Part shown: positions 2,695 to 62,901 of the stretch, in pieces
Numbering within the stretch: position 1 is the stretch's first letter
How the letters are laid out: each line of letters starts with the position of its first letter
From: Bauldia litoralis
GTDB taxonomy: Bacteria; Pseudomonadota; Alphaproteobacteria; Rhizobiales; Kaistiaceae
Length of the DNA stretch: 64,000 nt
Direction: 5' to 3'
Assembly (NCBI RefSeq): GCF_900104485.1
Contig: NZ_FMXQ01000004.1
Span: 291,898 to 355,897 of the forward strand
The notes under the pieces: generated by a model
The model's input: the letters and a program-made list of their open reading frames with translations, nothing else
Told to the model about the DNA's origin: nothing
Database searches by the model: none
Translations under genes and position numbers: made by a program

Positions 2695-2707
2695 GGCTGC
2701 TTCGCGA

Positions 2708-3088: not shown

Positions 3089-3124
3089 CGCGCCGCCCCT
3101 TGTCGGCGAATCACTTCGGTCGCG

Positions 3125-3472
3125 TCAGACGAACTGGCCGAGGCCGGGAACCGAGGCGACGATCGCCTCGACGGTGCCGGGCTTGGCCTTCTCGCGGGCG
3201 TGCCGGCCAAAGCTCTCGACCACTGACTGGACCTGCATCATGCCGAGGCCGGCCGAGGTCAGTGCGTTGAAGGCCGCCATCAGACCGTCCGGCCCGCCGG
3301 GACCGTCGGCCTCAAGCGCCTCGCGGGCGCCGGGCAGCGCATCGAGCAGGTCGTCGACCTTGTCGGCCGGCGCTTCCTGGCGGACGAATTTGAGAATGAT
3401 GATCACCGATTTCCGGGCGACGTCGGGCGACACGCCGGTGTCGGCGACGATCTTTGCGATCAGGTCTTCCAT
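3125..3472 (-). CDS. DUF2267-like small helical protein
   Basis: The 115-residue soluble protein begins MEDLIAKIVADTGVSPDVA and continues VIIILKFVRQEAPADKVDDL, a helical pattern seen in DUF2267-type proteins of alphaproteobacteria. The second half is rich in Gly and Ala, and a hydrophobic VPGLGQFV ends the chain. There is no signal peptide. It is 36 nt upstream of the YjbR gene on the same strand. Function is unknown and the family assignment rests on memory of the N-terminal pattern. Confidence 0.75.
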   Translation of the reverse strand: MEDLIAKIVADTGVSPDVARKSVIIILKFVRQEAPADKVDDLLDALPGAREALEADGPGGPDGLMAAFNALTSAGLGMMQVQSVVESFGRHAREKAKPGTVEAIVASVPGLGQFV

Positions 3473-3598
3473 TCAATCCTCGCTATGCGTCTCGCTTCGC
3501 GGGGCATGTGACTCCACGCGTTGGCGAAACACAAGCGCGCTTCCGGTCGGCGGCCGATGCCGCTAGGTTGCGCCAACCCGAAAACATGAGGAATCCCG

Positions 3599-4975
3599 AT
3601 GCTCGACCGCGTATTGCAACAGATCGACGATGACCTGCCGGCGAGCCTCGACCGACTTTTTACGCTGCTCCGCATCGAGAGCATCTCGACCGACCCGGCC
3701 TATCGCGACAAAGTCGCCGCCGCCGCCGATTGGCTGGCCGAGGAACTCACCGGCCTCGGCTTCGACGCCTCGGTGCGTCCCACCACCGGCCACCCGATGG
3801 TCGTCGCCCATGACGCGACCGCGACCGCCGGGCCGCACCTTCTCTTCTACGGCCATTACGACGTCCAGCCGGTCGACCCGCTGAGCGAATGGGCAACGCC
3901 GCCCTTCGATCCCCGCATCGAGACGGTCGATGGCGCCAAGCGGATCGTTGCCCGTGGCGCATCAGACGACAAGGGCCAGCTGATGACCTTCCTCGAGGCC
4001 TGCCGCGCCTGGAAGGCGGTCACCGGCAAGCTGCCGGCGAAGGTCTCGATCCTGTTCGAGGGCGAGGAGGAATCCGGCAGCCCGAGCCTCGTGCCCTTCC
4101 TGCGGGCGAATGTCGACGAGTTGCGCGCCGATGTCGCGCTGGTCTGCGACACGGGGATGTGGAGCCGCGAGCGCGGCGCCATCACCATCATGCTGCGCGG
4201 CCTGGTCGGCGAGGAGGTGACCATTTCCGCCGCCGATCGCGATCTGCATTCCGGCATGTTCGGCGGCGCGGCCCGCAACCCGCTCCACGTTCTCTCAGAC
4301 ATCCTTGCCCGTCTTCACGATGCGGACGGCCGCGTCACCGTTCCGAACTTCTATGACGGGGTCGCCGAGGTCCCCGACGACGTCAAGGCGATCTGGGACA
4401 CGCTCGGTTTCGACGCGGACGCCTTCCTCGATACAGTCGGGCTGACGACGCCGGCCGGCGAGGCGGGGCGCACGGTGCTTGAGCAGATCTGGTCGCGTCC
4501 GACCTGCGAGGTCAACGGCATCATCGGTGGTTACACGGGCGAGGGCTTCAAGACGGTGATCCCGGCCAAGGCCTCGGCCAAGGTGTCCTTCCGCCTCGTC
4601 GGCGACCAGGATCCCGAAAAGGTCCGTGAGAATTTCCGGGCCTTCGTCACCGGCCTGCTGCCTCCCGATTGCCGCGTGTCCTTCGCCAGCCACGGCGGCA
4701 GCGGCGCGACGCGGCTCCCCTTCGACGGTCCGTTCCTCGCAGGCGCCCGCGCCGCGCTGACCGACGAATGGGGCATCGAGCCGGCGCTGGTTGGCGGCGG
4801 CGGCTCGATCCCGGTGGTTGGCGACTTCAAGCGGGAGCTGGGGATGGATTCGCTGATGGTCGGCTTCGGTCTCGATGACGACCGCATCCATTCGCCGAAC
4901 GAGAAATACGAGTTGTCGAGCTTCCATGGCGGCATCCGCTCCTGGGCGCGGATCCTCGGGCAACTCGGCGGCTAG
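3599..4975 (+). CDS. M20-family metallodipeptidase
   Basis: The 458-residue protein is a zinc-dependent M20 peptidase of the dipeptidase type, expected to hydrolyse short peptides in the cytoplasm. Metal and catalytic motifs are visible in order: LLFYGHYDVQPVD (His and Asp near residues 85-87), RGASDDKGQ (bridging Asp), FEGEEESGSPSL (catalytic Glu pair) and the C-terminal DDRIHSPNEKYELSSFHGG. The lid/dimerisation domain lies between, starting near DLHSGMFGGAARNP. It is transcribed divergently from the DUF2267-like gene and ends convergently with the cytochrome c' gene at a shared hairpin. Confidence 0.93.
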   Translation: MLDRVLQQIDDDLPASLDRLFTLLRIESISTDPAYRDKVAAAADWLAEELTGLGFDASVRPTTGHPMVVAHDATATAGPHLLFYGHYDVQPVDPLSEWATPPFDPRIETVDGAKRIVARGASDDKGQLMTFLEACRAWKAVTGKLPAKVSILFEGEEESGSPSLVPFLRANVDELRADVALVCDTGMWSRERGAITIMLRGLVGEEVTISAADRDLHSGMFGGAARNPLHVLSDILARLHDADGRVTVPNFYDGVAEVPDDVKAIWDTLGFDADAFLDTVGLTTPAGEAGRTVLEQIWSRPTCEVNGIIGGYTGEGFKTVIPAKASAKVSFRLVGDQDPEKVRENFRAFVTGLLPPDCRVSFASHGGSGATRLPFDGPFLAGARAALTDEWGIEPALVGGGGSIPVVGDFKRELGMDSLMVGFGLDDDRIHSPNEKYELSSFHGGIRSWARILGQLGG

Positions 4976-5832: not shown

Positions 5833-7359
5833 ATGGCGGTGATCGAAGAGGGCAAGGTGTTCGTCGGGACGAGCGGCCACCCGGAATACGTCCAGTTGCC
5901 CTTCGCCAATCGCCACGGGCTGATCACCGGCGCCACCGGTACCGGCAAGACGGTGACCCTGCAGATTCTCGCCGAGGGTTTCTCGAAGGCTGGTGTCCCG
6001 GTCTTCTGCTCCGATGTGAAGGGCGACGTCGCCGGCATGGCGATGCCCGGCGAACCGAAGGATTTTCTCGCCAAGCGGGCGGAAAAGATCGGCTTCGCCG
6101 ATGAGTATGCCTTCGAGGCATTTCCGGTCGTCTTCTGGGACCTGTTCGGCAAGGAGGGGCATCCGGTCCGTACCACGGTTTCGGAGATGGGGCCGCTGCT
6201 CCTGTCGCGCCTGCTCGGCCTCAACGACACCCAGGAAGGCGTGCTCAACGTCGCCTTCCGCATCGCCGACGAGGAAGGGCTGCCGATCCTCGACCTCAAG
6301 GACCTGCAGGCGCTGCTGGTCTATGTCGCGGAGCGGGCGAGCGAACTGACCGTGCGCTACGGCAACATCTCGAAGGCGAGCGTCGGCGCCGTGCAGCGCT
6401 CGCTGCTGGTACTCGAGCAGCAGGGCGGCCAGATGTTCTTCGGCGAGCCGGCGCTGGCGATCTCCGAACTGATGCGCACCGCGCCGGACGGCCGCGGCAT
6501 CGTCAACATCCTCGCCGCGTCATCGCTGATGCAGTCGCCCCGGCTCTACGCCACCTTCCTGCTCTGGCTGCTCTCCGAACTGTTCGAGGAACTGCCGGAA
6601 ATCGGCGATCCCGAGAAGCCGAAGCTGGTCTTCTTCTTCGACGAGGCGCACCTCCTGTTCAACGATGCACCGAAGGCGCTGCTTGAGAAGATCGAGCTGG
6701 TGGTTCGGCTGGTCCGGTCGAAAGGCGTCGGCGTCTACTTCGCCAGCCAGAACCCGCTTGACGTGCCCGACACCGTGCTGTCGCAGATCGGCAACCGCGT
6801 CCAGCACGCGCTGCGCGCCTTCACCCCGCGCGACACCAGGGCGGTCAAGACCGCCGCCGACACCTTCCGCCCCAACCCCGACTTCAAGACCTTCGATGTC
6901 ATCACCCAACTCGGCGTCGGCGAGGCGCTGGTCTCGACGCTGGAGGCCAAGGGCATTCCCTCGATCGTTCAGCGGACCCTGATCCGGCCGCCGTCGTCGC
7001 GGATGGGAACGATCACCGAGGCGGAACGCCAGGCGGTGATCGCGGCAAGCCCGATCGGCACGATCTACGACGTCACCATCGACCGCCAGTCGGCCTTCGA
7101 GATGCTCAAGGCCAAGGTCGAGGACAAGGTTGCCGAGGCGCCCGCCGGTCCGCCGCCCGATGTGCCGGGCGAGGGCAGCGGCAGCCTGCTCGAAGAAATC
7201 CTCGGTCTCAACGTGCCGCGCAACAAACGCCTCTCGACCACCCAGAAGGCGGCGCGCGAAGTGACGCGCGACCTGTCGGAAACGGTCGGCGGGGCGCTTG
7301 CCGGCTCGGTCGGCCGCCAGATCTTCCGCAGCGTGCTCGGCGGCATCCTGCGACGCTGA
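5833..7359 (+). CDS. HerA-like DUF853/YjgR family ATPase
   Basis: The 508-residue protein is a P-loop ATPase of the HerA/FtsK-like superfamily, YjgR type. Walker A is GATGTGKT (about residues 33-40), a Walker B-like strand is LVFFFDEAHLLF (about 263-274), and a sensor region follows at FASQNPLDVPDTVLSQIGNR. The C-terminus is long and basic, with GRQIFRSVLGGILRR at the end. Family members are usually hexameric ATPases of unknown cellular role; this one lacks a neighbouring nuclease (NurA, Sir2 or similar), so there is no evidence for a defence function. The amidase gene starts 20 nt downstream. Confidence 0.9.
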   Translation: MAVIEEGKVFVGTSGHPEYVQLPFANRHGLITGATGTGKTVTLQILAEGFSKAGVPVFCSDVKGDVAGMAMPGEPKDFLAKRAEKIGFADEYAFEAFPVVFWDLFGKEGHPVRTTVSEMGPLLLSRLLGLNDTQEGVLNVAFRIADEEGLPILDLKDLQALLVYVAERASELTVRYGNISKASVGAVQRSLLVLEQQGGQMFFGEPALAISELMRTAPDGRGIVNILAASSLMQSPRLYATFLLWLLSELFEELPEIGDPEKPKLVFFFDEAHLLFNDAPKALLEKIELVVRLVRSKGVGVYFASQNPLDVPDTVLSQIGNRVQHALRAFTPRDTRAVKTAADTFRPNPDFKTFDVITQLGVGEALVSTLEAKGIPSIVQRTLIRPPSSRMGTITEAERQAVIAASPIGTIYDVTIDRQSAFEMLKAKVEDKVAEAPAGPPPDVPGEGSGSLLEEILGLNVPRNKRLSTTQKAAREVTRDLSETVGGALAGSVGRQIFRSVLGGILRR

Positions 7360-7379
7360 ACCGGGCAGGGAGGCCGCGG

Positions 7380-8786
7380 ATGACCACCAGGGAACTGCAC
7401 GAGATGACGGCGGCGGCGCTTTCCGCCGGGTTTGCGGCGCGGACTGTCTCGCCGGTCGACGTCGCCACCGCGCTGCTCGACCGGATCGCGGCGCATGACG
7501 GCAAGCTCAACGCCTTCTGCCTCATCGACCGCGAAACCTCGCTCGTCCAGGCCCGCGCCTCGGCCAAGCGTTGGGAGGCGGGCAAGCCGCTGTCGCCGCT
7601 CGATGGCGTACCGGTCGCGGTCAAGGACCTTCTCCTGACCGACGGCTGGCCGACGCTGCGCGGTTCGCTGACCGTCGATGCCAGCGGGCCCTGGAATGTC
7701 GACGCGCCCGCCGTCGCCCGGTTGAGGGAAGCCGGGGCGGTGCTGATCGGCAAGACGACGACGCCGGAATTCGGCTGGAAGGGCGTCACCGACTCGCCGC
7801 TGACCGGCATCAGCCGCAACCCGTGGAACCCGGACAAGACGCCGGGCGGTTCCTCCGGCGGCTCGGCCGCGGCGCTTGCCGCGCGGTTCTGCCCGCTGGC
7901 GCTCGGCACCGACGGCGGCGGCTCGATCCGCATGCCGGCGCATTTCACCGGCACCTACGGCCTCAAGCCGAGCTTCGGCCGCGTCCCGGCCTGGCCACTG
8001 TCGCTGTTCGGCACGCTCGCCCATGTCGGGCCGATGGCCCGCACGGTGACCGACGCCGCGATGCTCCTCGACATCATCGCCCGCCCGGATTCGCGCGACT
8101 GGTACGCGCTTCCACCCGAGGACGGCTTCGCCGATGGCCTCGGCGACAGCGTCAGGGGCAAGCGCATCGCCTTCTCGCCGCGCCTCGGCTGGGCGCCGGT
8201 GGTCGACCCGGAAGTCGAGGCGCTGGTCGCGCTCGCCGCCGACCGCTTCATCGAACTCGGCGCCCATGTCGAGGCGGTCGATCCGCCCGGCGGCGACCCG
8301 ACCGACACATTCCGCACCCTGTGGTGGGTGGGTGCCGCGACCGTGCTGAAGGACATCCCGCCCGATCAACGGGCGATGGTCGATCCGGGACTGCGCGCCA
8401 TCGCCGGGGAGGGCGCGGCGATACCGCTCGCCGACTACCTCGCCGCCACCCAGGCGCGCGGCGCCTATGGCAGCGCCATGCGGCAGTTCATGGAGGACTA
8501 CGACTTCCTGCTGACGCCCTCGGTCGCGACGCCGGCCTTCGATGCCGGGCAACTATCGCCCTACGCCGACGACGGCAATGCCTGGCTTGGATGGACGCCC
8601 TTCAGCTATCCGTTCAACCTCACCCAGCAGCCCGCCGCCAGCATCAACTGCGGCTTCACAGCCGCCGGCCTGCCGGTCGGGCTCCAGATCGTCGGGCGGA
8701 TGTTCGACGACCGGGGCGTGCTGGCCGCGTCGCGCGCCTACGAACGGTCGAACCCGCTGCACGAGAGGCCGCCGCCCGGTCACTGA
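7380..8786 (+). CDS. Amidase-signature family amidase
   Basis: The 468-residue enzyme carries the complete Ser-cisSer-Lys triad of the amidase signature family: Lys82 in PVAVKD, Ser158 in TPGGSSGGSAA and Ser182 in TDGGGSIRMPA. These enzymes hydrolyse carboxamides in the cytoplasm; the substrate cannot be read from sequence. It is not the GatA subunit, because no gatB or gatC is nearby. It follows the YjgR-like ATPase gene by 20 nt and is probably in the same transcript. Confidence 0.92.
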   Translation: MTTRELHEMTAAALSAGFAARTVSPVDVATALLDRIAAHDGKLNAFCLIDRETSLVQARASAKRWEAGKPLSPLDGVPVAVKDLLLTDGWPTLRGSLTVDASGPWNVDAPAVARLREAGAVLIGKTTTPEFGWKGVTDSPLTGISRNPWNPDKTPGGSSGGSAAALAARFCPLALGTDGGGSIRMPAHFTGTYGLKPSFGRVPAWPLSLFGTLAHVGPMARTVTDAAMLLDIIARPDSRDWYALPPEDGFADGLGDSVRGKRIAFSPRLGWAPVVDPEVEALVALAADRFIELGAHVEAVDPPGGDPTDTFRTLWWVGAATVLKDIPPDQRAMVDPGLRAIAGEGAAIPLADYLAATQARGAYGSAMRQFMEDYDFLLTPSVATPAFDAGQLSPYADDGNAWLGWTPFSYPFNLTQQPAASINCGFTAAGLPVGLQIVGRMFDDRGVLAASRAYERSNPLHERPPPGH

Positions 8787-34340: not shown

Positions 34341-34757
34341 ATGACCGAACAAACCGCCAGCGCCGATCTCATTGATCTGGCCGCCGAAATTGTATCAGCT
34401 TACGTCAGCAACAATTCGGTTCCGGCACAAGACCTGCCGACGCTCATCTCGGAGGTTCACCGCGCGCTGAGCAGCACGCATCAGGGCCTGAACCAGCCGG
34501 AGCCGGAGCCTCTGAAGCCGGCGGTGAACCCCAAGAAGTCGGTGTTCCCCGATTACATCATCTGTCTCGAGGACGGAAAGAAGTTCAAGTCGCTGAAGCG
34601 GCATCTGCGCACCCATTACGACATGTCGCCTGAGGAATACCGGGAGAAGTGGGGCCTCGCCACCGACTATCCGATGGTTGCTCCGAACTATGCCGCGGCG
34701 CGTTCGGCTCTCGCCAAGAAGATGGGCCTCGGCCAGCAGCGTCGCCGCAAGTCCTGA
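34341..34757 (+). CDS. mucR: MucR/Ros family transcriptional regulator
   Basis: The 138-residue protein is an alphaproteobacterial zinc-finger regulator. The finger [20 protein letters not shown] has Cys75, Asp78 in place of the second Cys, His88 and His92, as in MucR proteins, followed by [12 protein letters not shown] and a basic tail (QQRRRKS). Family members oligomerise through the N-terminus, bind AT-rich DNA, and silence exopolysaccharide, motility and horizontally acquired genes. Two AT-rich IS elements are inserted 550 nt downstream. It ends at a strong terminator. Confidence 0.95.
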
Positions 34758-34782: not shown

Positions 34783-35166
34783 TCATCCGCCGCCTTTTGG
34801 CGGCGGATGTGTTTTGGGCGGAGCCTCGCCGGGGCCAAGCCGACGCCGCTCCGCCTCGAAGGCCTGCCTCAGGCCGATGTGACGGTTGAGGTCATAAGTC
34901 CAGTGTCCGGCGCGGCCGCGGCTGCGCTCTGCCCGCAGCGCGCGGGCCAGGCGGGCGAGGATGGCGCGCCGCGTCTCCATCGTGTCGTCGGCGATCTGAT
35001 CGCAGGTCATCGGAATGAGCCGCGGCAGGTGCCGCATCCGATCGTAGGTCTCGGTCCCCGCCGCGATGACACGCGCTACAGATCGCGCTGCATGATCGCG
35101 AAGGCGGGACGGCTTGCGGTCCTGCCGGGATCCGGTCTCAAGGTTGGGCCAGTTGCGTGAGGTCAT
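34783..35166 (-). CDS. Small basic protein of unknown function, convergent with mucR
   Basis: The start at 35164-35166 is chosen because AAGGAG precedes it. The 127-residue product is rich in Arg and starts MTSRNWPNLETGSRQDRKPS; the middle (SVARVIAAGTETYDRMRHLP; ETRRAILARLARALRAERSR) is helical. There is no signal peptide. It could be a small DNA-associated protein, but I do not recognise the family. Its 3' end overlaps the mucR terminator. Confidence 0.65.
   Translation of the reverse strand: MTSRNWPNLETGSRQDRKPSRLRDHAARSVARVIAAGTETYDRMRHLPRLIPMTCDQIADDTMETRRAILARLARALRAERSRGRAGHWTYDLNRHIGLRQAFEAERRRLGPGEAPPKTHPPPKGGG
34784..34815 (+). terminator. Intrinsic terminator after mucR
   Basis: An 11-bp perfect stem (CATCCGCCGCC with GGCGGCGGATG, loop TTTT) is followed by TGTTTT. 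The hairpin also encodes the last codons of the convergent gene at 34783-35166. Confidence 0.85.
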
Positions 35167-35301
35167 CGGTCTCGCTCCTTTGTCGGATGCGAGTCTCCGC
35201 CCATTCTTGCCGGCGGGGATAAGTCCCCGGGTTGTGCCCACCCCGCGATCGTCAGCGAAAGTTATCCCCGTCGTGGCGGACTTGCGTTATCCTTACATAG
35301 G

Positions 35302-35309
35302 AAATAAAT
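35302..35309. repeat. Target-site duplication AAATAAAT, copy 1
   Basis: The 8-bp direct repeat left of element 1. Identical copies stand at 37361-37368 and 40103-40110. Eight-bp duplications are the rule for IS1595-family elements. Confidence 0.85.
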
Positions 35310-35333
35310 CCTAATTATATGGATGACAAAGCA
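35310..35333 (+). repeat. Left terminal inverted repeat of element 1
   Basis: Begins CCTAATTATATGGATGACAA and ends AGCA; complementary to 37337-37360 with one mismatch. Confidence 0.85.
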
Positions 35334-35372
35334 ATGTCGGGCGCGTATAACGATTCGCGACAGGCCAGCGTT

Positions 35373-36146
35373 TTAGAGGGCGTGCCGTTCAAGGATGTCG
35401 ACGCCCTTTTCGATGAAATGAGCGGTTTGTGCGAGGATTGGCACAATAGGCTGACCCTGACCAATAGGCGCCTCGGCGACCGCTACCTCAATGGCGACCT
35501 CAACATCCTCATCGAAGCCCGTTGGGCCGGTACGGAACACTTCCGCATTGTCTGTCAGAGGGCAGACGATGTGGTTGGGGCCTACCTTGACGGGGATCTT
35601 GATGGGTTGCCCGGGAACGATTTGCGAGGCGTGAACCGTGTGGACGGCGCGCACTTGTCGGTGTGCGGCCCCTACCGCAATGATGCCCTTGTGTTTGTCC
35701 TCGATGTCGAGCCAGTTCAAAAAGTAAAGCAAATCGCACCCACTTTCGTATGGCTTGAACCGTCGCATCGCCCGCTCGGCACGTTTGCTGACCCCCTTTA
35801 TTTTTTCGGGAAAATGGGTTTCGAACGTGTCGCGACTTCCTGTGATAAGAAACCCGGTCTTCCTCGTCACGCGTCCGCAGTTCGCGGCAACCAAGTCACA
35901 AACGACTTGGTCCAAGGCAGAGCGAAGGTTGTGAACAGCGTCACCGATGATGACGCTGAAGTCACAAGGGATCACTTCCTTGATTCGGACGCGATAGACG
36001 TTATCTCCGGTATCCGGATCGGTCTCACGAACGAGGCTGTATGGGTTGAGGTCGCGGAAGGATTTGATCCGCGACTCCAATTCCTCGATATGGCGTTTGG
36101 CCCGTTCGATCTTTAATCGCGGGCCCTCAAACAATTGGTTTGTCAT
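35373..36146 (-). CDS. Passenger protein of element 1, unknown function
   Basis: The 257-residue soluble protein starts at ATG 36144-36146, whose last two bases are shared with the ATG of the divergent TPPKP gene (CATG); a TTG at 36159-36161 is an alternative. It begins with a predicted coiled coil (RLKIERAKRHIEELESRIKS) and has two striking motifs: IIGDAVHNLRSALDQVV and LNWLDIEDKHKGI. The rest is beta-rich. Proteins with HNLRSALD are frequent in accessory regions but unnamed. A top-strand ORF over the same stretch is judged a shadow. Confidence 0.72.
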   Translation of the reverse strand: MTNQLFEGPRLKIERAKRHIEELESRIKSFRDLNPYSLVRETDPDTGDNVYRVRIKEVIPCDFSVIIGDAVHNLRSALDQVVCDLVAANCGRVTRKTGFLITGSRDTFETHFPEKIKGVSKRAERAMRRFKPYESGCDLLYFLNWLDIEDKHKGIIAVGAAHRQVRAVHTVHASQIVPGQPIKIPVKVGPNHIVCPLTDNAEVFRTGPTGFDEDVEVAIEVAVAEAPIGQGQPIVPILAQTAHFIEKGVDILERHAL

Positions 36147-36315
36147 GGCCGACTCGCGCAATCAGAACGAGAAGACCCTATCAGAGATTGCCAGGCGTGT
36201 CTTAGCGACGCCGCCGAAGCCGAGAGTTGAAGCGGCCGGCAAGGGCAAGGCTGGAAAGCAAAGACCCGGCCCGCCCGCTAAGGGCGAGAAGCGCGCCTCT
36301 GACGCCAACGAATGA
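36145..36315 (+). CDS. Tiny TPPKP-motif protein 1
   Basis: The 56-residue basic protein starts MADSRNQNEKTLSEIARRVL and continues ATPPKPR, then a Lys/Gly/Pro-rich low-complexity tail. The same pattern (helix, TPPKP, basic tail) occurs in element 2 at 39152-39331. In both elements the start codon overlaps that of a larger divergent gene as CATG. The short helix plus disordered basic tail recalls small antitoxins or nucleic-acid binders, but function is unknown. Confidence 0.6.
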   Translation: MADSRNQNEKTLSEIARRVLATPPKPRVEAAGKGKAGKQRPGPPAKGEKRASDANE

Positions 36316-36332
36316 AGTTTCGGGCTTTTTGT

Positions 36333-37292
36333 TTAAGCGTGACTGGCTTTGTCAGGGCTAGTGTATAGCAAGCGCTTGCCGCCCGAGCCTTTAATGATGT
36401 CCGCGACGCGTTCGGTATCTCCAACGCCAAGAGCCGTGCGGCGATTGTAGCGGAAATCGAACTCAGCAATGTAGCGGTGCAGGTGCGCTTCGCCGCAATG
36501 CTGATAGGTGCCCTTCATTCCGCGCTTGAACACGGAAAAGACGTTCTCGACCGTGTTTGAGTGGATGGCGAAACCGTCCTCGTAACGGACATACTCGCCA
36601 GCCGAATGCTTGACGGTCTGGTGCTTGGCAAATTCGCGGCCCGTCTCGGTGTAGAAATTTGATTCGTCGGTATTGAGGATCGACTTGCGATCCACATTCC
36701 GAACCAGCACGTCTCGAATATTCACCTTCGTTGCGTGTTCGACGTGGAACATACGGACCTGTCCGCCGCGCTCGACCAGCGCCACGACAGACCGCTTGTC
36801 GAAAGGCTTTTTGCGTTTCAGGTACGGACGGCCCTTGCGCTGCTCGGAAGGTTTGGGCGTCTCGCGGCGACCGAAATAAGTTTCATCCGCCTCAACCACT
36901 TTGCCTTCGCCGCCAATCGGCCCCGTGTAGGTGTCTTTCATTGCTTCGCGGATACGATGCGCGAGGAACCACGCCGCCTGATAGCCGATGCCCAACATGC
37001 GGTGCAGCTGGTGCGCCGAGACGCCCTTCTTTGACGCGCCCATGAGGTGCATCGCCAATAGCCATTTGTTGAGCGGGATTTTGGAGCGCTCCATGACAGA
37101 GCCAGTCGTGACGGTGAACTGCTCACGGCAATCGTTGCACTGGTAGAGGCCGACACGATGCGCCTTGCCCTTCAATGTCGTGGCGTTGAACGAACCACAA
37201 TGCGAGCAGACCGGGCCTTGCGGCCAGCGTTGCGCTTCGAGGTATTCACGCGCCTTGTTCGGGTCGGTGAAGCGAGGATCGGTGAGGTTCAT
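36333..37292 (-). CDS. IS1595-family transposase 1
   Basis: The ~319-residue transposase starts at MNLTDPRFTDPNKAREYLEA. An N-terminal zinc ribbon (CSHC...CNDC) is followed by a small HTH and the DDE-type domain: VVEADETYFG (first Asp), LNTDESNFY (second Asp) and HSNTVENVFSVFKRG, where IS1595 members use Asn or Glu as the third residue. All motifs are present and the reading frame is intact, so it may be active. It is clearly related to transposase 2 but not identical. Confidence 0.93.
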   Translation of the reverse strand: MNLTDPRFTDPNKAREYLEAQRWPQGPVCSHCGSFNATTLKGKAHRVGLYQCNDCREQFTVTTGSVMERSKIPLNKWLLAMHLMGASKKGVSAHQLHRMLGIGYQAAWFLAHRIREAMKDTYTGPIGGEGKVVEADETYFGRRETPKPSEQRKGRPYLKRKKPFDKRSVVALVERGGQVRMFHVEHATKVNIRDVLVRNVDRKSILNTDESNFYTETGREFAKHQTVKHSAGEYVRYEDGFAIHSNTVENVFSVFKRGMKGTYQHCGEAHLHRYIAEFDFRYNRRTALGVGDTERVADIIKGSGGKRLLYTSPDKASHA

Positions 37293-37336
37293 GGCCGTTG
37301 CCCTTGACTTGATGGCTGATTCTCGCCCCTCCACCC

Positions 37337-37360
37337 TGCTTTGTCAACCATATAATTAGG
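37337..37360 (-). repeat. Right terminal inverted repeat of element 1
   Basis: Reads TGCTTTGTCAACCATATAAT then TAGG; inverse of 35310-35333 with one mismatch. Confidence 0.85.
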
Positions 37361-37368
37361 AAATAAAT
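37361..37368. repeat. Target-site duplication AAATAAAT, shared middle copy
   Basis: This single copy separates the right end of element 1 from the left end of element 2, so the two elements share it. Confidence 0.85.
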
Positions 37369-37392
37369 CCTAATTATATACTTGACAAAGCA
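37369..37392 (+). repeat. Left terminal inverted repeat of element 2
   Basis: Begins CCTAATTATATACTTGACAA and ends AGCA; inverse of 40079-40102 with one mismatch. Confidence 0.85.
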
Positions 37393-37436
37393 GGCCCGAT
37401 TCCCCAAATAAGTCAAGCAGACAGGGGAACCGACCG

Positions 37437-38390
37437 ATGGCCAAGAACATCAACCCGATTTTCACCGACGCCGAAAAGGCCCGCGAATATCTGGAAGCCC
37501 AGCGCTGGCCGGACGGTGCCATTTGCCCGCATTGCGGTGCCGACGACGTGACCAGCATGAAGGGCAAGGCCCATCGTCCTGGCGTGTATCAGTGCAACGC
37601 CTGTCGGGATCAGTTCACCGTCACGGTCGGAACCGTCTTCGAGCGTTCCAAGATCCAGTTGAACGTCTGGCTGTATGCGACGCACCTTCTCACCAGTTCC
37701 AAGAAGGGGATGAGCGCTCACCAGCTGCACCGCATGATCGGCGTCACCTACAAGACCGCTTGGTTCATGATGCATCGCATCCGCGAAGCGATGCGCGACG
37801 ACAATGCAGGCCCGATTGGCGGCTCAGGGAAGGTCGTGGAAGCCGATGAGACCTACATCGGCAAGACATCCAAGCCCCGCTTCTCCAAGCAGCGTGGCGA
37901 GCGTCCCTACATCAAGCGCAAAGGCCCGCAGTCCAAGAACCCGGTTGTCGCGCTGGTCGAGCGTGGCGGCGAGGTCCGTATGTTCCATGTCGAGAACGCG
38001 ACGAAAGAGAACGTCCGCGACATTCTGGTTCGCAACGTCCGTCGCGACAGCGAATTGCACACCGACGAAAGCCGCCTCTACACCGAAACCGGCAAGGAGT
38101 ATGCGGGCCACCACACCGTGAAGCACTCAGGCGGTGAGTACGTCCGTTACGAGAGCGAGCGCATCGTCCACAGCAACACGGTCGAGAACGTGTTCTCCGT
38201 CTTCAAGCGCGGCATGACTGGCGTCTACCAGCATTGCAGCGAGGCCCATTTGCACCGGTATTTGGTCGAGTTCGAGTTCCGCCGTAACCGCCGCACCGCG
38301 CTCGGCTACACCGACGCCATGCGTTGCGACGAAGCCTTGAAGGGCATCGAAGGCAAGCGCCTCACCTATCGGCGGATTGGTGAAGCCTAA
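37437..38390 (+). CDS. IS1595-family transposase 2
   Basis: The 317-residue transposase has a zinc ribbon (Cys30, Cys33, Cys53, Cys56), an HTH region, and the catalytic core VVEADETYIG (Asp138), ELHTDESRLY (Asp210) and HSNTVENVFSVFKRGM (Asn247/Glu250). It is intact. Compared with transposase 1, the core motifs are nearly the same while the N-termini and the segment after ETYIG differ, in keeping with two related but distinct elements. It is divergent from transposase 1 across the shared TIR junction. Confidence 0.93.
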   Translation: MAKNINPIFTDAEKAREYLEAQRWPDGAICPHCGADDVTSMKGKAHRPGVYQCNACRDQFTVTVGTVFERSKIQLNVWLYATHLLTSSKKGMSAHQLHRMIGVTYKTAWFMMHRIREAMRDDNAGPIGGSGKVVEADETYIGKTSKPRFSKQRGERPYIKRKGPQSKNPVVALVERGGEVRMFHVENATKENVRDILVRNVRRDSELHTDESRLYTETGKEYAGHHTVKHSGGEYVRYESERIVHSNTVENVFSVFKRGMTGVYQHCSEAHLHRYLVEFEFRRNRRTALGYTDAMRCDEALKGIEGKRLTYRRIGEA

Positions 38391-38512
38391 GACGATCAGG
38401 CAGAAGGTCCGCCACTTTCAGATGTGGCGAAAGAAACGAATCGCGCCGAAGCGCGGTTAGCGTATGATGCCGCATAATTCGCGGGAGGAAAGAAGCCATG
38501 GATAAGCCGCGT

Positions 38513-39055
38513 CTAAATCTGGATCATCTGACATCCGTGCGGGAGCGCGAACTCCTCGACGCGATGCGCGACACCGAATTTGACCGCATCCTCCGGGGAG
38601 AAGTGCACCTCCCGGAATCGGCGGGCGGTCAGAATATTGTCGGGGATGCTACACCGATCGCGCAGGATGCCATCCGTGCGATCTTCTTCCGCCAAAGCCG
38701 AGTCCATAAGGGTTCGTAGCCGCTCCCATGACATGCCCTCCGCGCTGCCGGGTACGGCGGTAGGATGGATCATGAAGAGCACGTGCTGAGAGCAGAGCCG
38801 CGTCTCTGCCCCTGCCAGAACCGCGACTGCGACCGACGCAATATTCCCTGTCGCATGGATCGTAACCGGGACTGGCAATGCCCGGATGTGGTTGTAGAGG
38901 TAAATGCCGTCCGCCGTGTACCCGCCTAGTGAACTGAATGTGAGGTAGATCTCGCCCGCGCCGTTGTTGACGCCGTGGTTGAGGGTGGCACAGAGGCGCG
39001 TGACGCTGTGCGAATCGATGGGGCCATTGAACCCGTAATAGGCCGTATTATTCAT
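38513..39055 (-). CDS. ClpP-like serine protease, passenger of element 2
   Basis: The 180-residue protein has the ClpP/crotonase-fold protease pattern: YYGFNGPIDSHSV, TFSSLGGYTADGIYLYNHI (oxyanion Gly-Gly; normally SPGG), ATGNIASVAVAVLAGA with nucleophile Ser74, and VLFMIHPTA with His97. The end FSPEDAVKFGVAHRVEE matches the family too. Only two catalytic residues are assigned with confidence. Chromosomal ClpP is expected elsewhere, so this is an accessory paralogue. GGAGG precedes the start, which overlaps the 58-residue gene by ATGA. Confidence 0.85.
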   Translation of the reverse strand: MNNTAYYGFNGPIDSHSVTRLCATLNHGVNNGAGEIYLTFSSLGGYTADGIYLYNHIRALPVPVTIHATGNIASVAVAVLAGAETRLCSQHVLFMIHPTAVPGSAEGMSWERLRTLMDSALAEEDRTDGILRDRCSIPDNILTARRFREVHFSPEDAVKFGVAHRVEEFALPHGCQMIQI

Positions 39056-39228
39056 GCGTCATCCTCCGCTGCCTGTTGGGCACGGTTAAAAGCCTCGGTT
39101 TCTGCGTTTGCTAAAAGAAAGGCGAGGAATCCCTCGCCTATGTCGTCAGCTTCAGTCCTGAGCCTTGCCAGTTCGGCGGCGATCCTTTCGAGGACCGCTC
39201 GCTTTCCCTCTATCGCTCTTAGCGTCAT
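39052..39228 (-). CDS. 58-residue protein ahead of the ClpP-like gene
   Basis: The bottom strand from ATG 39226-39228 encodes MTLRAIEGKRAVLERIAAEL and on to AFNRAQQAAEDDA, a helical, probably coiled-coil protein. Its stop overlaps the ClpP-like start (ATGA), and its first 77 nt overlap the end of the TPPKP gene, so the three form one compact operon. A role as adaptor or inhibitor for the protease is possible but purely positional. Confidence 0.6.
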   Translation of the reverse strand: MTLRAIEGKRAVLERIAAELARLRTEADDIGEGFLAFLLANAETEAFNRAQQAAEDDA

Positions 39229-39331
39229 CGCCCTTGCCCTTGCTACCCTTGGTGGCAGTATGGGGCTTGGGGGGCGTTGAGAGAAGCCGCTTAACGACCT
39301 CCTGGAACTTCGGTTCGGGGGAGTCTGTCAT
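39152..39331 (-). CDS. Tiny TPPKP-motif protein 2
   Basis: The 59-residue basic protein starts MTDSPEPKFQEVVKRLLSTP (then PKPH) and ends in a Lys/Gly/Arg-rich disordered tail. It matches the element 1 protein in order and motif. An AGGTG site precedes its ATG (39329-39331), which overlaps the ATG of the divergent HEPN-like gene as CATG. It is first in the operon with the 58-residue and ClpP-like genes. Confidence 0.65.
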   Translation of the reverse strand: MTDSPEPKFQEVVKRLLSTPPKPHTATKGSKGKGDDAKSDRGKASGPRKDRRRTGKAQD

Positions 39332-39980
39332 GAACACACCTAGCTCAAAGCCGTTGGTCCGGTTCAAGGGATATGGACTCGACGGGAACCCGAGAGGGCG
39401 CCCACCTGACGGGGAGTTTGTTTCCGGCATACATAATGCGGAACTTGCTCAAGTCATCGGCCAACTGGTCGGCGTCTGGCCGCACTTGGAAGAATCGATG
39501 ATCGACGTTTTCGCGCAACTCGCTGGCGACCAGACAAAAATCGCGTCTTACGCAATCTTCCGGTCGATCACGGCCGAGAGACTGCGCGTCGATATCATGC
39601 GGACGCTCCTGACGGCGACCCCTCTCAATGTTTCCAGAGAGCAGGTTTTCGATGAGGTCATCGACGAGTTCGCGTCGATAAACAAACTGAGGAACGACTA
39701 CGTTCATGGGATCTGGTACACGGCCAGCAAAGACGGAAAGACGTACTTGTCCCCGCCGTCGGCGTCGAATCCACATGCGTTCTTGGCGGCGAGGCGCGTT
39801 TCGGTGAAGCAAGCGGAACACACGCTTATTCGCGCCGCCAATCTCAACGGGCGGATACTCAGTGAAATTGTTGTCGCGGACCTCAAGGCACGGGGCGCGC
39901 AACGCGCTGCATCGCGTCGAAAATCTCGCGCGAAAGCCGTTGAAAAACCTCAACCGGATAAGGCTCTGCGTACCACATAG
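39330..39980 (+). CDS. HEPN-like protein with Rx4H motif, passenger of element 2
   Basis: The 216-residue soluble protein is largely helical. Residues 45-60 (IGQLVGVWPHLEESMIDVF) and the motif KLRNDYVHGIW (Arg121 to His126, Rx4H) match the pattern of HEPN-domain RNases of toxin and defence systems. The C-terminal ~40 residues are Arg/Lys-rich. GGGGGAG precedes the ATG. The protein at 54858-55490 has the same spacing and motif. The HEPN assignment rests on motif and helix pattern only. Confidence 0.7.
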   Translation: MNTPSSKPLVRFKGYGLDGNPRGRPPDGEFVSGIHNAELAQVIGQLVGVWPHLEESMIDVFAQLAGDQTKIASYAIFRSITAERLRVDIMRTLLTATPLNVSREQVFDEVIDEFASINKLRNDYVHGIWYTASKDGKTYLSPPSASNPHAFLAARRVSVKQAEHTLIRAANLNGRILSEIVVADLKARGAQRAASRRKSRAKAVEKPQPDKALRTT

Positions 39981-40077
39981 CGAGCACATCGACGCCGGCC
40001 TCGATCATCTCGGGCGTGATCTCGATCTCGTCATTCTGAAGCGCTGGCCTGTCGACCGAATCAGTAGCGTCTGTCAT
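39883..40077 (-). CDS. 64-residue protein at the right end of element 2
   Basis: The bottom strand from ATG 40075-40077, immediately inside the right inverted repeat, encodes MTDATDSVDRPALQNDEIEI and then TPEMIEAGVDVLAMWYAEPY. It is acidic at first and helical at the end (VFQRLSREIFDAMQRV). The ITPEMIEAG...L pattern is seen in small proteins of Hyphomicrobiales, function unknown. Its 3' end overlaps the HEPN-like gene by 98 nt in antisense. Confidence 0.6.
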   Translation of the reverse strand: MTDATDSVDRPALQNDEIEITPEMIEAGVDVLAMWYAEPYPVEVFQRLSREIFDAMQRVARPVP

Positions 40078-40078
40078 T

Positions 40079-40102
40079 TGCTTTGTCACGTATATAATTA
40101 GG
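40079..40102 (-). repeat. Right terminal inverted repeat of element 2
   Basis: Reads TGCTTTGTCACGTATATAAT then TAGG; inverse of 37369-37392 with one mismatch. Confidence 0.85.
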
Positions 40103-40110
40103 AAATAAAT
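40103..40110. repeat. Target-site duplication AAATAAAT, copy 3
   Basis: The outer right copy. Joining 35301 to 40103 restores an empty site reading ACATAGG-AAATAAAT-CCTATACATG, itself a near-palindrome. Confidence 0.85.
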
Positions 40111-40144
40111 CCTATACATGTGCCTGGCGGAACGGAGTGCGTAG

Positions 40145-53835: not shown

Positions 53836-54003
53836 AAGCGGCCGGTCGGCGGCATTGGCCGCCGGCCGGTCCACCTTGCCGGAGCGAACGCGCCCGGGCG
53901 CCCTTGCAGCCGGTGACAGCGCTTCGCATATGATGAAATGAGCGAGGACGACCTCCCCATGAAGACACCCTTCGGGACGACCCGGAGACCGAAGGGGAGC
54001 GTC

Positions 54004-54459: not shown

Positions 54460-54857
54460 CCGGCTGGCAGGGGCGGGTTGGCCGCCTGGCACCCCCCCAT
54501 TTGGGGGGATTTGGGACGACCGAATCCCCTGTACACAGGGAGGGCGTCGGACCCGAGCCTCCCACGGCAGGGCGCGGACGGTGCTAGCCCTCCTCTCTCC
54601 GGAGGACCGTCCGCCGACCAAAGCGGCCCCCATTTGGCGACGAGTGGGGGCCGTCTTGGCGTTTGCCAGGGTGCAGAGGTGGCGAAAGAAGCGCGCCCTA
54701 GACTCCCGGTAGCAATCGGCCCACCATTTCCGAATCGCAAGTCTTCGGTCCGCTGATAGCCTCAGTGGGCAAGCGCAGGCGGTTAGCTTGTGGCATACTC
54801 TGCTTGGTCCGAAACGGCGACCTCCCGTCACGGTGGTCCGTGGGAGGCTTCTTATTC
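54460..54857. other. Structured intergenic region upstream of the HEPN-like gene
   Basis: Three hairpins stand in series: CCCCCC/GGGGGG (54493-54508), GCGGACGGT/ACCGTCCGC (54574-54614, with CCTCCTCTC inside) and CGGCCCCCA/TGGGGGCCG (54624-54653). No protein is supported. Together they could be a structured RNA or the scar of an inserted element. The next gene's ribosome site (GGAGG) lies at about 54843. Confidence 0.4.
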
Positions 54858-55490
54858 ATGGCAACTCGCCCCGTCAGCAAAGCGGCCTTGGACCATGCCG
54901 AAGCGCTGTTTGTCGAAGCCTTTGGCCGCGCCATGCTCAACTGGTCTCATGTCGAACAACGCCTGTTTTGGTACTTCGAACACATCACGGAAATGAAACA
55001 CGAGATGAGCCGCGCCGTATACTATTCGGCCCGGAATTTTACCGCGCGGGCTGAGATGTTGGCCGCTGCGATGTCCGCAAATCAAGCCTTAGATAGCGAC
55101 CTATCCGTGTTCCTGCAAAAAGCGCTCAAGAAGGCCCGCCAATACCAAGCCTTTAGAAACTCACTTGCCCACGGCGAAACTATCATGTTCGCCAATACAG
55201 GTATTCGAGCTGAGAACCGGCTCACCCTCGTCGAAGGCAAGCGCGCCCTCCATTTGTCGATCGATTCGGGAATCAAAGTTTCCCAACTGAGGACCGCCGC
55301 AAAGAACTTCAGCCGGCTCGCGTCACTCCTAACCGTGGTTTATCTCAACCAGATGACCAAGGGCGCACACGGCAAGTCGCCTGCACAATGTCTGAAACAA
55401 GTTCTTCGGCTTCCCAACACTGCAAGCTCGCGGACACCAGCCCCGATCCCAAAAGAACGGAAACCCCGGCGTCGATCATCTGGAAAGTAA
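54858..55490 (+). CDS. HEPN-like protein with Rx4H motif
   Basis: The 210-residue helical protein has FGRAMLNWSHVEQRLFWYFE (residues 22-41) and AFRNSLAHGET with Arg100 to His105 (Rx4H). Spacing of the W-x-H-x-E helix and the Rx4H matches the passenger protein at 39330-39980, so the two belong to one superfamily. The tail is Arg/Lys/Pro-rich. The base composition is more AT-rich than adjacent genes, suggesting transfer. ATG 54858 has GGAGG 10 nt before it. Confidence 0.7.
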   Translation: MATRPVSKAALDHAEALFVEAFGRAMLNWSHVEQRLFWYFEHITEMKHEMSRAVYYSARNFTARAEMLAAAMSANQALDSDLSVFLQKALKKARQYQAFRNSLAHGETIMFANTGIRAENRLTLVEGKRALHLSIDSGIKVSQLRTAAKNFSRLASLLTVVYLNQMTKGAHGKSPAQCLKQVLRLPNTASSRTPAPIPKERKPRRRSSGK

Positions 55491-55580
55491 TTCAATTTCG
55501 GGCGCGCCAGCCTCACCCGCCGAAGCAAGGGAGACAGTCGCAGCAATGTCCGAATTATCTACCTCGTCATGTGCATAAAT

Positions 55581-55622
55581 AGGAATAAAAACCTTGACGC
55601 CGTGACGCTGGCCCGGTAGAGT
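55581..55622 (+). promoter_or_regulatory. Promoter with overlapping palindrome, sRNA locus
   Basis: TTGACG (55594-55599) and TAGAGT (55617-55622) are 17 nt apart. AGGAATAAAAACCT directly precedes and overlaps the -35 box. An almost identical arrangement occurs at 62860-62901, including the GCCGTGACG spacer start. Confidence 0.65.
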
Positions 55623-55826: not shown

Positions 55827-56438
55827 ATGGACCTGCACCCTCATACCCCGATACCGAACGGCCATGATCCCGGTGCGATGCCGGCCGTGGCGCGGCGCGG
55901 CGCGATGGCCGCGCTGGGACGCGACCCGGCGGCGCGCGAGACCCTGCGCCGGATGGTCGAGGAGACGCCGCGCTCGCTGCGCCAGATTGCCATCGAACAC
56001 GGCGTGCCGCCGGGATCGTTCCACCGCTTTGTCGTCGAGCAGGGCTGGATCCGGCCGCCGGAGGCGCCGCGCGCCGCGCCGCGCCGCGAACGTCCGGCCC
56101 CCGGCGACCGGCCGCTGGCGGCGGGCCTCGGCGATGCCGGCGCGGTGATGGGCCGGCTGGTCGGCGCGGTCGACCGGCAGGTGGCGATGATCGAACAGCG
56201 GCTGGCGAAGCGCGACGCGGCCGTCGAGGAAAAGGACGCGCGCATCCTCGGCACGCTGGCCAAGACGCTGGCAACCCTGATGGCGCTCGAGCGGGACGGC
56301 GGCGCGAAACCCGACAGAGCGGAGCCCCCCGATAGTGGAGAATTTCGAGCAGATCTTCTGCGCCGAATTGCAGCGTGGGCTGGACAACGGACAGAGCCCG
56401 CTGGACCTGTTGGCGGCACTGACGGAAGCGCAGGCTGA
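55827..56438 (+). CDS. GTA/phage small terminase-like protein
   Basis: The 203-residue protein has a small HTH segment (SLRQIAIEHGVPPGSFHRFVVEQGW, residues 49-73) and then a helical region with QVAMIEQRLAKRDAAVEEKDARILGTLAKTLATLMALE, the layout of small terminase subunits of the Rhodobacter-type gene transfer agent. It overlaps the large subunit gene by 104 nt. The ATG 55827 lacks a strong ribosome site (GGGAG 8 nt upstream). Confidence 0.75.
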   Translation: MDLHPHTPIPNGHDPGAMPAVARRGAMAALGRDPAARETLRRMVEETPRSLRQIAIEHGVPPGSFHRFVVEQGWIRPPEAPRAAPRRERPAPGDRPLAAGLGDAGAVMGRLVGAVDRQVAMIEQRLAKRDAAVEEKDARILGTLAKTLATLMALERDGGAKPDRAEPPDSGEFRADLLRRIAAWAGQRTEPAGPVGGTDGSAG

Positions 56439-57666
56439 ATTCGCCAATGGCCGCTGGCTGATCTGGGCCCGGCCGGACCAGATGCCGCCGCCGGGCGACT
56501 GGCTGACCTGGCTGATGCTCGGCGGGCGCGGCGCCGGCAAGACCCGGGCAGGCGCCGAATGGGTGCGCGGACTGGCGCTCGGCCTGCCGCCTTTCGCAAG
56601 CCTGCCGGTCGCCCGCATCGCCCTGGTCGGCGAGACCTTCGCCGACGTCCGCGAGGTGATGATCGAGGGCGTCTCCGGCCTGTTGCGGGTCCACGCCACC
56701 GGCGAGCAGCCGGACTGGCAGCCGACGCGGCGGCGGCTGGTCTGGCCGAATGGCGCGGTGGCGCAGGCGTTTTCGGCGGAGGATCCCGAAGGTCTGCGCG
56801 GCCCGCAATTCGGCGCCGCCTGGAGCGACGAGCTGGCCAAGTGGCGTCATGCCGAGGCGACCTGGGACATGCTGCAATTCGGCCTCAGGCTCGGCGAGCG
56901 GCCGCGCCAGATGGTGACGACGACGCCGCGGCCGATCCCGTTGCTCAGGCGGCTGATCGCCGCCGCCGACACGACGATCACCCGGGCGACCACCCGCGCC
57001 AACCGCTTCAACCTCGCCTCCGGTTTCATCGAGCGCGTCGTCGGCCGCTATGCCGGGACGCGGCTCGGTCGGCAGGAACTGGAGGGCGAACTGATCGAGG
57101 ATCGGGCGGACGGCCTGTGGCAGCGCCACGAGATCGAGGCGGCGCGGGTCGGCCTGCATCCGCCGCTCGGCCGCATCGTCGTCGCCGTCGATCCGCCGGC
57201 CTCGAAGCGGAGCGGCATCTGCGGCATCGTCGCCGCCGGGCTCGGGCCCGACGGCATCGGCTATGTCATCGCCGACGCGACGGTGACCGAGGTGCGGCCC
57301 GACCAGTGGGCGGCGGCGGCGATCCGGCTCTACCGGCGCTTCGACGCCGACGCGCTGGTCGCCGAGGTCAACCAGGGCGGCGACATGGTCGAGGCGGTGC
57401 TGCGCGAGGTCGATGCGACGGTGCCGGTGACCAAGGTCCGGGCGACCCGCGGCAAGTGGCTGAGGGCCGAGCCGGTGGCCGCACTCTATGCGCAAGGCCG
57501 GGTGCGCCATGTCGGGGCGCTGGCGGCGCTCGAGGACGAACTCTGCGACTTCGGCCCCGACGGCCTGTCGGCCGGCCGCTCGCCCGACCGCCTCGATGCG
57601 CTGGTCTGGGCGATCGCCGCGCTGATGCTGGGCGAGGGCGGCGAGCCGCGGGTGCGGGGGCTGTGA
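56335..57666 (+). CDS. GTA/phage-type terminase large subunit
   Basis: The 443-residue DNA-packaging motor has the ATPase part (LMLGGRGAGKTRAGAEWVRG, Walker A; FGAAWSDELAKW, Walker B-like with Asp-Glu) and the nuclease part (IVVAVDPPASKRSG; ALVAEVNQGGDMVEAVLREV; DRLDALVWAIAALML). The pattern matches the gp2 terminase of alphaproteobacterial gene transfer agents. Portal, protease and capsid genes that normally follow are absent: the next feature is tRNA-Val. GTG 56335 is used as start. Confidence 0.9.
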   Translation: MENFEQIFCAELQRGLDNGQSPLDLLAALTEAQAEFANGRWLIWARPDQMPPPGDWLTWLMLGGRGAGKTRAGAEWVRGLALGLPPFASLPVARIALVGETFADVREVMIEGVSGLLRVHATGEQPDWQPTRRRLVWPNGAVAQAFSAEDPEGLRGPQFGAAWSDELAKWRHAEATWDMLQFGLRLGERPRQMVTTTPRPIPLLRRLIAAADTTITRATTRANRFNLASGFIERVVGRYAGTRLGRQELEGELIEDRADGLWQRHEIEAARVGLHPPLGRIVVAVDPPASKRSGICGIVAAGLGPDGIGYVIADATVTEVRPDQWAAAAIRLYRRFDADALVAEVNQGGDMVEAVLREVDATVPVTKVRATRGKWLRAEPVAALYAQGRVRHVGALAALEDELCDFGPDGLSAGRSPDRLDALVWAIAALMLGEGGEPRVRGL

Positions 57667-62634: not shown

Positions 62635-62859
62635 TGTTTTCTCCGCTAATTTTTGTGGGTCGATTGGCAATGAATTTCGGCATGCACCGATTGACCGGGG
62701 CCGATTACCGCAGATTGATCGGATTCGATACCGCTCGCAAGACGAACAGCGCGCTTGGCTGAAGAAGGCGTAAAGAGGCGCCGAGGGCGGTGTCGTTGCG
62801 AGGAAGGGGACGAAGGGGCCGGCGGAGTCGGTGTTGCGCGGATTCTCAAATCCAGATAC

Positions 62860-62901
62860 AGGAATAAATTCCTTGACGCCGTGACGGTGCTCGGGTAGGA
62901 T
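62860..62901 (+). promoter_or_regulatory. Near-copy of the 55.6-kb sRNA promoter
   Basis: AGGAATAAATTCCT is a palindrome (6-bp arms) overlapping TTGACG (62873-62878); TAGGAT follows at 62896-62901, 17 nt away. Compared with 55581-55622 the spacer start GCCGTGACG and the downstream GGCTAT are the same. Confidence 0.65.

Follow-up and report, generated by a model that had tools for sequence, protein, structure and literature searches.

What leads two different transposons to settle side by side at a single point of a genome? This question is raised by a 64,000-bp stretch of Bauldia litoralis DNA (contig NZ_FMXQ01000004.1, positions 291,898 to 355,897 of the forward strand; hereafter the window). 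Two complete IS1595-type elements, E1 (35310-37360, 2051 bp) and E2 (37369-40102, 2734 bp), follow each other there, directly upstream of a predicted gafYZ gene pair, the activator of a gene transfer agent (GTA). We consider it probable that both elements entered one conserved host palindrome and that their transposases choose TAGG-N8-CCTA as a target.

Two elements in one palindrome

E1 and E2 each have their own 24-bp terminal inverted repeats, with 23 of 24 positions matching, and the 8-bp target-site duplication (TSD) AAATAAAT is present three times: to the left (35302-35309), between the elements (37361-37368) and to the right (40103-40110). The two transposases are 68% identical. The E1 transposase (333 aa) matched PF12762 with an E value of 9.2e-32 and NF033547 with 191.5 bits, and the E2 transposase (317 aa) matched them with 2.3e-34 and 208.9 bits (NF033547 cut-off, 75); the zinc ribbon PF12760 scored above its cut-off in both. 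The catalytic domain, zinc ribbon, inverted repeats and 8-bp duplication are those of the IS1595 family. Gene order is mirrored about the central junction. The initial annotation had described two passenger-bearing IS1595 elements back to back, with these borders, 23/24 repeats and the triple 8-bp repeat, and with complete transposases in a mirror-image layout. All of this was confirmed, the gene content by Pfam and NF033547 matches and by the positions of the open reading frames (ORFs).

What that annotation had overlooked is that the true repeated unit is 16 bp long, TAGG-AAATAAAT-CCTA. The elements end in CCTA...TAGG, and the unit extends to 16 bp because the host already carried TAGG to the left and CCTA to the right of the 8-bp duplication. 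A 16-bp target duplication was considered and rejected, since, at several related insertions, the flank outside the duplication does not match the element end on the opposite side (AGAG/CGTT at L026, AAGG on the left at L031, CCTT on the right at L021).

The genome (5,094,548 bp) contains the exact pattern TAGG-W8-CCTA at three places, each of them a junction of E1 or E2, and a reversed control pattern had no match. There would therefore have been one perfect site in the genome before insertion, and two after the first insertion, both at this locus. Only two sites lie within one mismatch of the palindrome, at window position 55580 and at contig position 361082, the latter approximately 2 kb upstream of a head-tail connector gene; both are TAGG-W8-CCTTGAC GTA-type promoters.

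The outer ends of the pair also match each other and share the TSD, as would be expected if 35302-40110 were a single composite element or a diverged duplicate of one element. We regard that as very improbable: each element has its own 23/24 repeats, a TSD copy lies in the middle, and the passengers of E1 and E2 differ. In the transposase tree, E1 paired with the transposase of L020 (Methyloceanibacter), a single element at gafYZ, and E2 stood apart, indicating that two lineages reached one site. Moreover, nine relatives lack the whole block.

The host site and its link to gene transfer agents

Those nine relatives, all of the same family, have the locus in its uninserted form, and the palindrome was found in nine of nine (eight TAGG/CCTA, one AAGG/CCTA) with centres that mostly differ. 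The empty site that the initial annotation had proposed to look for thus exists with an intact palindrome, which contradicts an ancestral origin of the block. That the target is a host palindrome conserved upstream of gafYZ-like and GTA genes had also escaped that annotation.

In the window, the palindrome lies between a MucR/DUF6477 gene pair and a PF08299-DUF6456 gene pair. GafY is homologous to domain IV of DnaA (PMC9632790; this and the other articles are cited from excerpts), and the pair is called gafYZ-like because its first gene carries PF08299; the DUF6456 gene is probably gafZ, judging from its position, although no equation of the two was found in PMC9632790 or PMC11150451. In Caulobacter crescentus, gafYZ is the direct activator of the GTA, and RogA represses gafYZ via a promoter with two GGAA-N4-TTCC repeats (PMC9632790, PMC11150451). 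The palindrome has the same GG-N8-CC spacing as these published repeats, and the window site matches seven of their eight letters. From this likeness, we predict a RogA-like repressor that has the palindrome as its operator. The same contig also carries GTA structural genes, with the terminase inside the window and the portal, connector, DUF2460 and GTA TIM-barrel genes at or beyond its edge. The gene set of an RcGTA-like locus was found (PF03237/PF17289, PF04860, PF05135, and PF13547 with an E value of 1.4e-145).

We then asked where the palindrome occurs in possible hosts. Of the family's 28 genomes, 21 contained exact matches to TAGG-W8-CCTW, and 17 of the 21 had them at no more than two places; the reversed control gave two matches. 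Apart from the window's own genome, the 20 matching genomes have 33 such places, and 24 of these loci were classified: nine lay at gafYZ (one of them, L155, an occupied junction), six at the terminase, four at a CCTTGAC GTA-type promoter alone, counted by the promoter motif without a gene match, and five were unassigned. Thus, 19 of the 24 are GTA genes or GTA-type promoters, and the pattern comes close to being a marker of GTA control regions in this family. A pattern search across the class matched six of 385 genomes, the window's own included. One further relative of the same family, G011, encodes an E2-like transposase (76% identical), and an element end lies there at TAGG-AATAATTT-CCTA beside MucR and DUF6477, a landing with another palindrome centre; one junction could be read, as the contig starts inside the element.

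Related insertions and rival explanations

Related elements were collected in two ways. An exact scan of GTDB contigs for the element ends gave 27 loci, of which 19 had a TSD-confirmed pair of ends and eight had none, several of these where the sequence stops inside the element; searches of the family and the order added more. Elements were accepted on paired ends and an 8-bp duplication, with the target sequence ignored, which resulted in 30 sites with 32 elements. The second set avoided the bias of searching by ends. The E2 transposase was searched against 377 genomes of the order and gave 73 rows in 52 genomes, of which 40 were read as new regions, 18 lay in stretches already read and 15 were left unread. 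In the 40 regions, ends were found de novo as 39 pairs, and three were dropped for having fewer than 14 of 20 matching repeat positions, leaving 36 elements; five transposase matches had no pair.

In the end-found set, the letters outward from the duplication (-1 to -4) were G at 59, G at 56, A at 55 and T at 39 of 60 flanks. AGG and CCT were present on both sides at 24 of the 30 sites, and full TAGG and CCTA at 13. The strong target preference that the initial annotation had suspected is therefore real. Across both sets, at least six of the eight flank letters matched in 38 of 68 elements, against 37 of 18,998 random positions in the same loci. Judged by the genes beside them, 11 of the 30 sites lay at a gafYZ locus and seven at the terminase, giving 18 at GTA genes; for L015, L016 and L020, the gafYZ label comes only from the MucR or DUF6477 flank, and L040, with the TSD and flank of a gafYZ insertion and no detected GafY, was counted as unassigned. 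Members of the group occupy a gafYZ or GTA terminase promoter in several alphaproteobacterial families. Among the 36 transposase-found elements, eight were linked to GTAs: tblastn placed four at gafYZ and three at the terminase, and L122 has a GTA-type promoter beside it without a gene match. The element L133_2621 was left out of this count, since it adjoins another element despite its script label of terminase large subunit (TerL).

Are the element ends themselves responsible for the target? Ends of the E1/E2 type, CCTA...TAGG, leave TAGG-N8-CCTA at both junctions, and such a rebuilt site probably gave the second element its landing place next to the first. Guidance by the end of the first element, the other possibility named in the initial annotation, holds to the extent that the E1 and E2 ends complete the motif. 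It is not needed in general, because L109 (ends CACA/CAGC) and L118 (GGCG/GGCG) also sit in TAGG-N8-CCTA; mimicry of the target by the ends was therefore rejected as a general rule. Doubled insertions were also found at L088, a terminase locus with three copies of ACTTTATT, and on the gafYZ side at L015, with ATATTATT at 118, 2956 and 5351. At L025 and L029, another end-like sequence abuts the duplication; a complete second element was not among the sequence read. In L133 (2621-7240, reversed strand), two neighbouring elements with different duplications lie beside a GTA terminase, and their transposases are 33% and 52% identical to that of E2.

Several observations weigh against a GTA-directed target. 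Twelve of the 30 end-found sites and 28 of the 36 transposase-found elements had no GTA assignment, many of the latter being in more distant branches with GG-type ends. The flanking sequences vary among the 30 end-found sites, but four in Hyphomonadaceae (L014, L024, L036, L040) share AAAGTTAT and may be one inherited insertion; with this group counted once, 16 of 27 sites remain at gafYZ or the terminase. The motif is missing at L026, L120 and L127. On the transposase tree, the gafYZ and TerL labels are scattered, with nine changes each, and selection for surviving hosts could by itself enrich GTA sites.

The clearest exception to the target rule is L026 (3135-5415, Amorphus coralli), which has standard ends and the duplication CCCCGCAC, with neither flank being TAGG or CCTA. 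The nine changes per label do not support a single clade of GTA-targeting transposases; both labels nevertheless cluster more than when shuffled, as gafYZ scored as low in 0 of 500 shuffled runs and TerL in 14 of 500.

The main rival to a GTA-directed choice is a preference for sequence alone: a rare AT-rich AGG/CCT palindrome would happen to lie in GTA control regions, and neither an effect on the GTA nor a benefit from its silencing would be needed. The motif is indeed rare and mostly GTA-linked in hosts, and it is also used at non-GTA sites, for example L034 (TAGG/CCTA) and L022 (TAGG/CCTT). By itself, a sequence preference leaves unexplained why several branches keep the target despite changed ends (L109, L118), which a preference for a conserved host site would explain. 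We see it as a real possibility, on the doubtful side. Survivorship is a second rival, in which elements insert at many AT-rich sites and hits in gafYZ or GTA promoters are retained because they are harmless and stop GTA lysis. In Caulobacter, a cell that produces the GTA dies of it, and GTA expression was lost when a transposon had struck gafY or the gafY promoter (PMC11150451, PMC10688885). The flank letters are conserved at non-GTA sites too, and the duplication is exactly central in the palindrome, a position that selection for loss of function alone does not require; we judge survivorship unlikely.

The choice of TAGG-N8-CCTA is supported by the flanks compared above; recognition by the transposase itself, silencing of the GTA and a benefit from it are what we infer. 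The transposase would recognize TAGG-N8-CCTA and insert in its centre with an 8-bp stagger, and each landing by CCTA...TAGG ends would rebuild the palindrome, opening a site for another element. As the palindrome is the presumed control site of gafYZ or the GTA operon, an insert would separate the promoter from the genes, leaving the GTA off. With the GTA silent, the host would escape GTA lysis, and the element would no longer risk being replaced by GTA-borne DNA. Silencing could help the element because producers are lysed on GTA release and because a phage, phiCbK, has its own repressor of gafYZ (PMC10688885).

A second type of site was seen as well. A GTTC-N7-GTTC box, which we take to be the alphaproteobacterial LexA box, lay within 40 bp of seven of the 36 transposase-found elements (L129, L130, L131, L137, L140, L141, L147). 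The gap between box and duplication was exactly 4 bp in six of them, and the box overlapped the duplication in one. Over both sets, a box was nearby in eight of 68 elements, against 25 of 18,998 random positions, suggesting that LexA-type boxes may be a second operator-linked target. We tentatively propose, as an idea that falls somewhat short of even chances, that this IS1595 lineage reads operators of host lysis and damage regulons, both the gafYZ/GTA palindrome and LexA-type boxes at a 4-bp gap, and shuts off GTAs, which would make the GTA a battlefield between host and transposon, in the way that competence is one for prophages.

The L033 insertion (1671-3994) lies just before a gene that looks imuA-like by eye and has a GAAC-N7-GAAC box in its promoter. 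The L115 element at 4699 (reversed strand) lies just before a gene at 5931 (+) that by eye resembles one for a helix-turn-helix/S24 regulator. The genome of the window itself encodes two S24-domain proteins, one of them LexA-like by sequence.

Passenger genes and comparison with known systems

Table 1. Features of the tandem pair and its surroundings (positions in the window).
Feature	Position	Strand	Remarks
MucR/Ros regulator	34341..34757	+	PF05443, E 1.5e-53; conserved neighbour of the site
DUF6477 gene	34783..35166	-	PF20083, E 1.6e-05; left flank
Left palindrome copy, TAGG-AAATAAAT-CCTA	35298..35313		TSD 35302-35309; last 4 bases belong to E1
E1, IS1595-type	35310..37360	-	Inverted repeats 35310-35333 and 37337-37360, 23/24
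E1 passenger, 257 aa, predicted HEPN-like fold	35373..36146	-	Model pLDDT 88.5; HEPN structures top the VIA list; no Pfam match
E1 small protein, 56 aa	36145..36315	+	Contains ATPPKP; start overlaps that of the 257-aa gene
E1 transposase, 333 aa	36333..37334	-	GTG start (later start possible); PF12762, PF12760, NF033547
Central palindrome copy	37357..37372		Formed by E1 and E2 ends; TSD 37361-37368
E2, IS1595-type	37369..40102	+	Inverted repeats 37369-37392 and 40079-40102, 23/24
E2 transposase, 317 aa	37437..38390	+	PF12762, PF12760, NF033547
E2 passenger, ClpP-like serine protease, 180 aa	38513..39055	-	PF00574, E 4.4e-11
E2 small ORF, 58 aa	39052..39228	-	ORF alone; no family match
E2 small protein, 59 aa	39152..39331	-	Contains STPPKPH; its start and the 216-aa gene's overlap, an arrangement shared with E1
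E2 passenger, 216 aa, predicted HEPN-like	39330..39980	+	R-N-x3-H; all 10 sequences compared share R121 and H126
E2 small protein, 64 aa	39883..40077	-	Contains EIEITPEMIEAG; related small ORF in 11/32 elements (blast cluster)
Right palindrome copy	40099..40114		TSD 40103-40110; 30 bp upstream of gafY-like start codon
gafY-like gene, DnaA domain IV type, 130 aa	40145..40537	+	PF08299, E 3.6e-15
gafZ-like gene (by position), DUF6456, 252 aa	40534..41292	+	PF20057, E 1.3e-47
GTA-type promoter site, TAGGAATAAAAACCTT(GACG)	55580..55595	+	One mismatch to palindrome; no element; precedes terminase genes
GTA terminase large subunit	56335..57666	+	PF03237, PF17289
GTA-type promoter site, CAGGAATAAATTCCTT(GACG)	62859..62874	+	About 1 kb before portal gene

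E1 and E2 are each predicted to encode a HEPN-like protein (Table 1). The 257-aa passenger of E1 had 139 homologues at E≤0.001; among 38 sequences, P60, D69, N73, L74, R75, D79, L146 and H152 were invariant, and the R-x4-6-H motif was not conserved. The 216-aa passenger of E2 carries the R-x4-6-H motif of the HEPN superfamily in its invariant pair of residues, and has two database relatives besides itself. Foldseek searches with the models of both proteins gave no match at E≤0.001. Small ORFs related to the 56-aa protein were present in 22 of the 32 end-found elements (blast cluster).

PADLOC found no defence match for the three E1/E2 proteins tested, so that a role of the passengers as known defence genes was not supported. 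Of seven proteins from other elements, two gave weak matches, to PDC-M19A (L083, 8e-4) and to LmuA (4e-6) plus PDC-S45 (L092). In PHROGs, the ClpP-like protein matched head or ATP-dependent protease families and the transposases matched families of unknown function; the remaining E1/E2 passengers tested had no match there.

The terminase promoter site at 55580 is immediately preceded by a HEPN-like ORF (54855-55490) and by what may be a decayed element end (55561-55583, 14 of 20 letters); the two are perhaps remnants of an older insertion. At L107 7084-7690 (contig C13, approximately 360083-360689), a HEPN-like ORF is paired with a divergent small ORF resembling an element-borne small protein, approximately 400 bp upstream of the third GTA-type promoter (L107 8083); no transposase or element end was found at 7084-7690. 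A Guanidine-II (mini-ykkC) riboswitch match was also detected at window positions 53940-53985 (34.3 bits, gathering score 32).

E1 and E2 resemble other members of their family in transposase domains, inverted repeats and 8-bp AT-rich duplications (PMC8101967, PMC12561309), and passengers have been described in members such as tISCpe8 and MTnSag1 (PMC5704250). E1 and E2 differ in their target, a 16-bp palindromic, conserved and presumed host control site with a half-site copied by the element ends; the targets of ISApl4 are given as AT-rich only (PMC12561309). In the excerpts of the literature on IS1595 and GTAs (including PMC9208149), we found no report of IS1595 elements at GTA or gafYZ promoters; a target consensus may be given in the founding paper of the family (Siguier 2009).

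Mobile elements in the competence genes comM, comK, comYC and comFA are a published parallel (PMC4774983), in that E1 and E2 too would disable host-run DNA exchange at a conserved site; those elements are integrase-borne prophages and islands within genes, whereas E1 and E2 are DDE transposons that occupy the promoters of GTA regulators. The TgrL protein of phage phiCbK also represents a foreign element that blocks gafYZ and hence GTA output (PMC10688885), the effect that we suppose for E1 and E2; TgrL acts as a repressor protein, whereas E1 and E2 would act by insertion in cis.

Strong site choice is a property of both IS30, which forms tandem arrangements via its own ends, and Tn7, which uses dedicated target proteins at attTn7. 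In E1 and E2, by comparison, the host target and the element junction share a half-site, so that insertion restores the host palindrome. A target restored at each junction would account for different elements standing back to back, and a transposase able to select a 16-bp palindrome would be useful as a tool for insertion. If these transposons do home to gafYZ and GTA promoters, this would give a simple reason why some strains may have silent GTAs, and the notion that mobile DNA is at war with host-run gene exchange could be put to a natural test.

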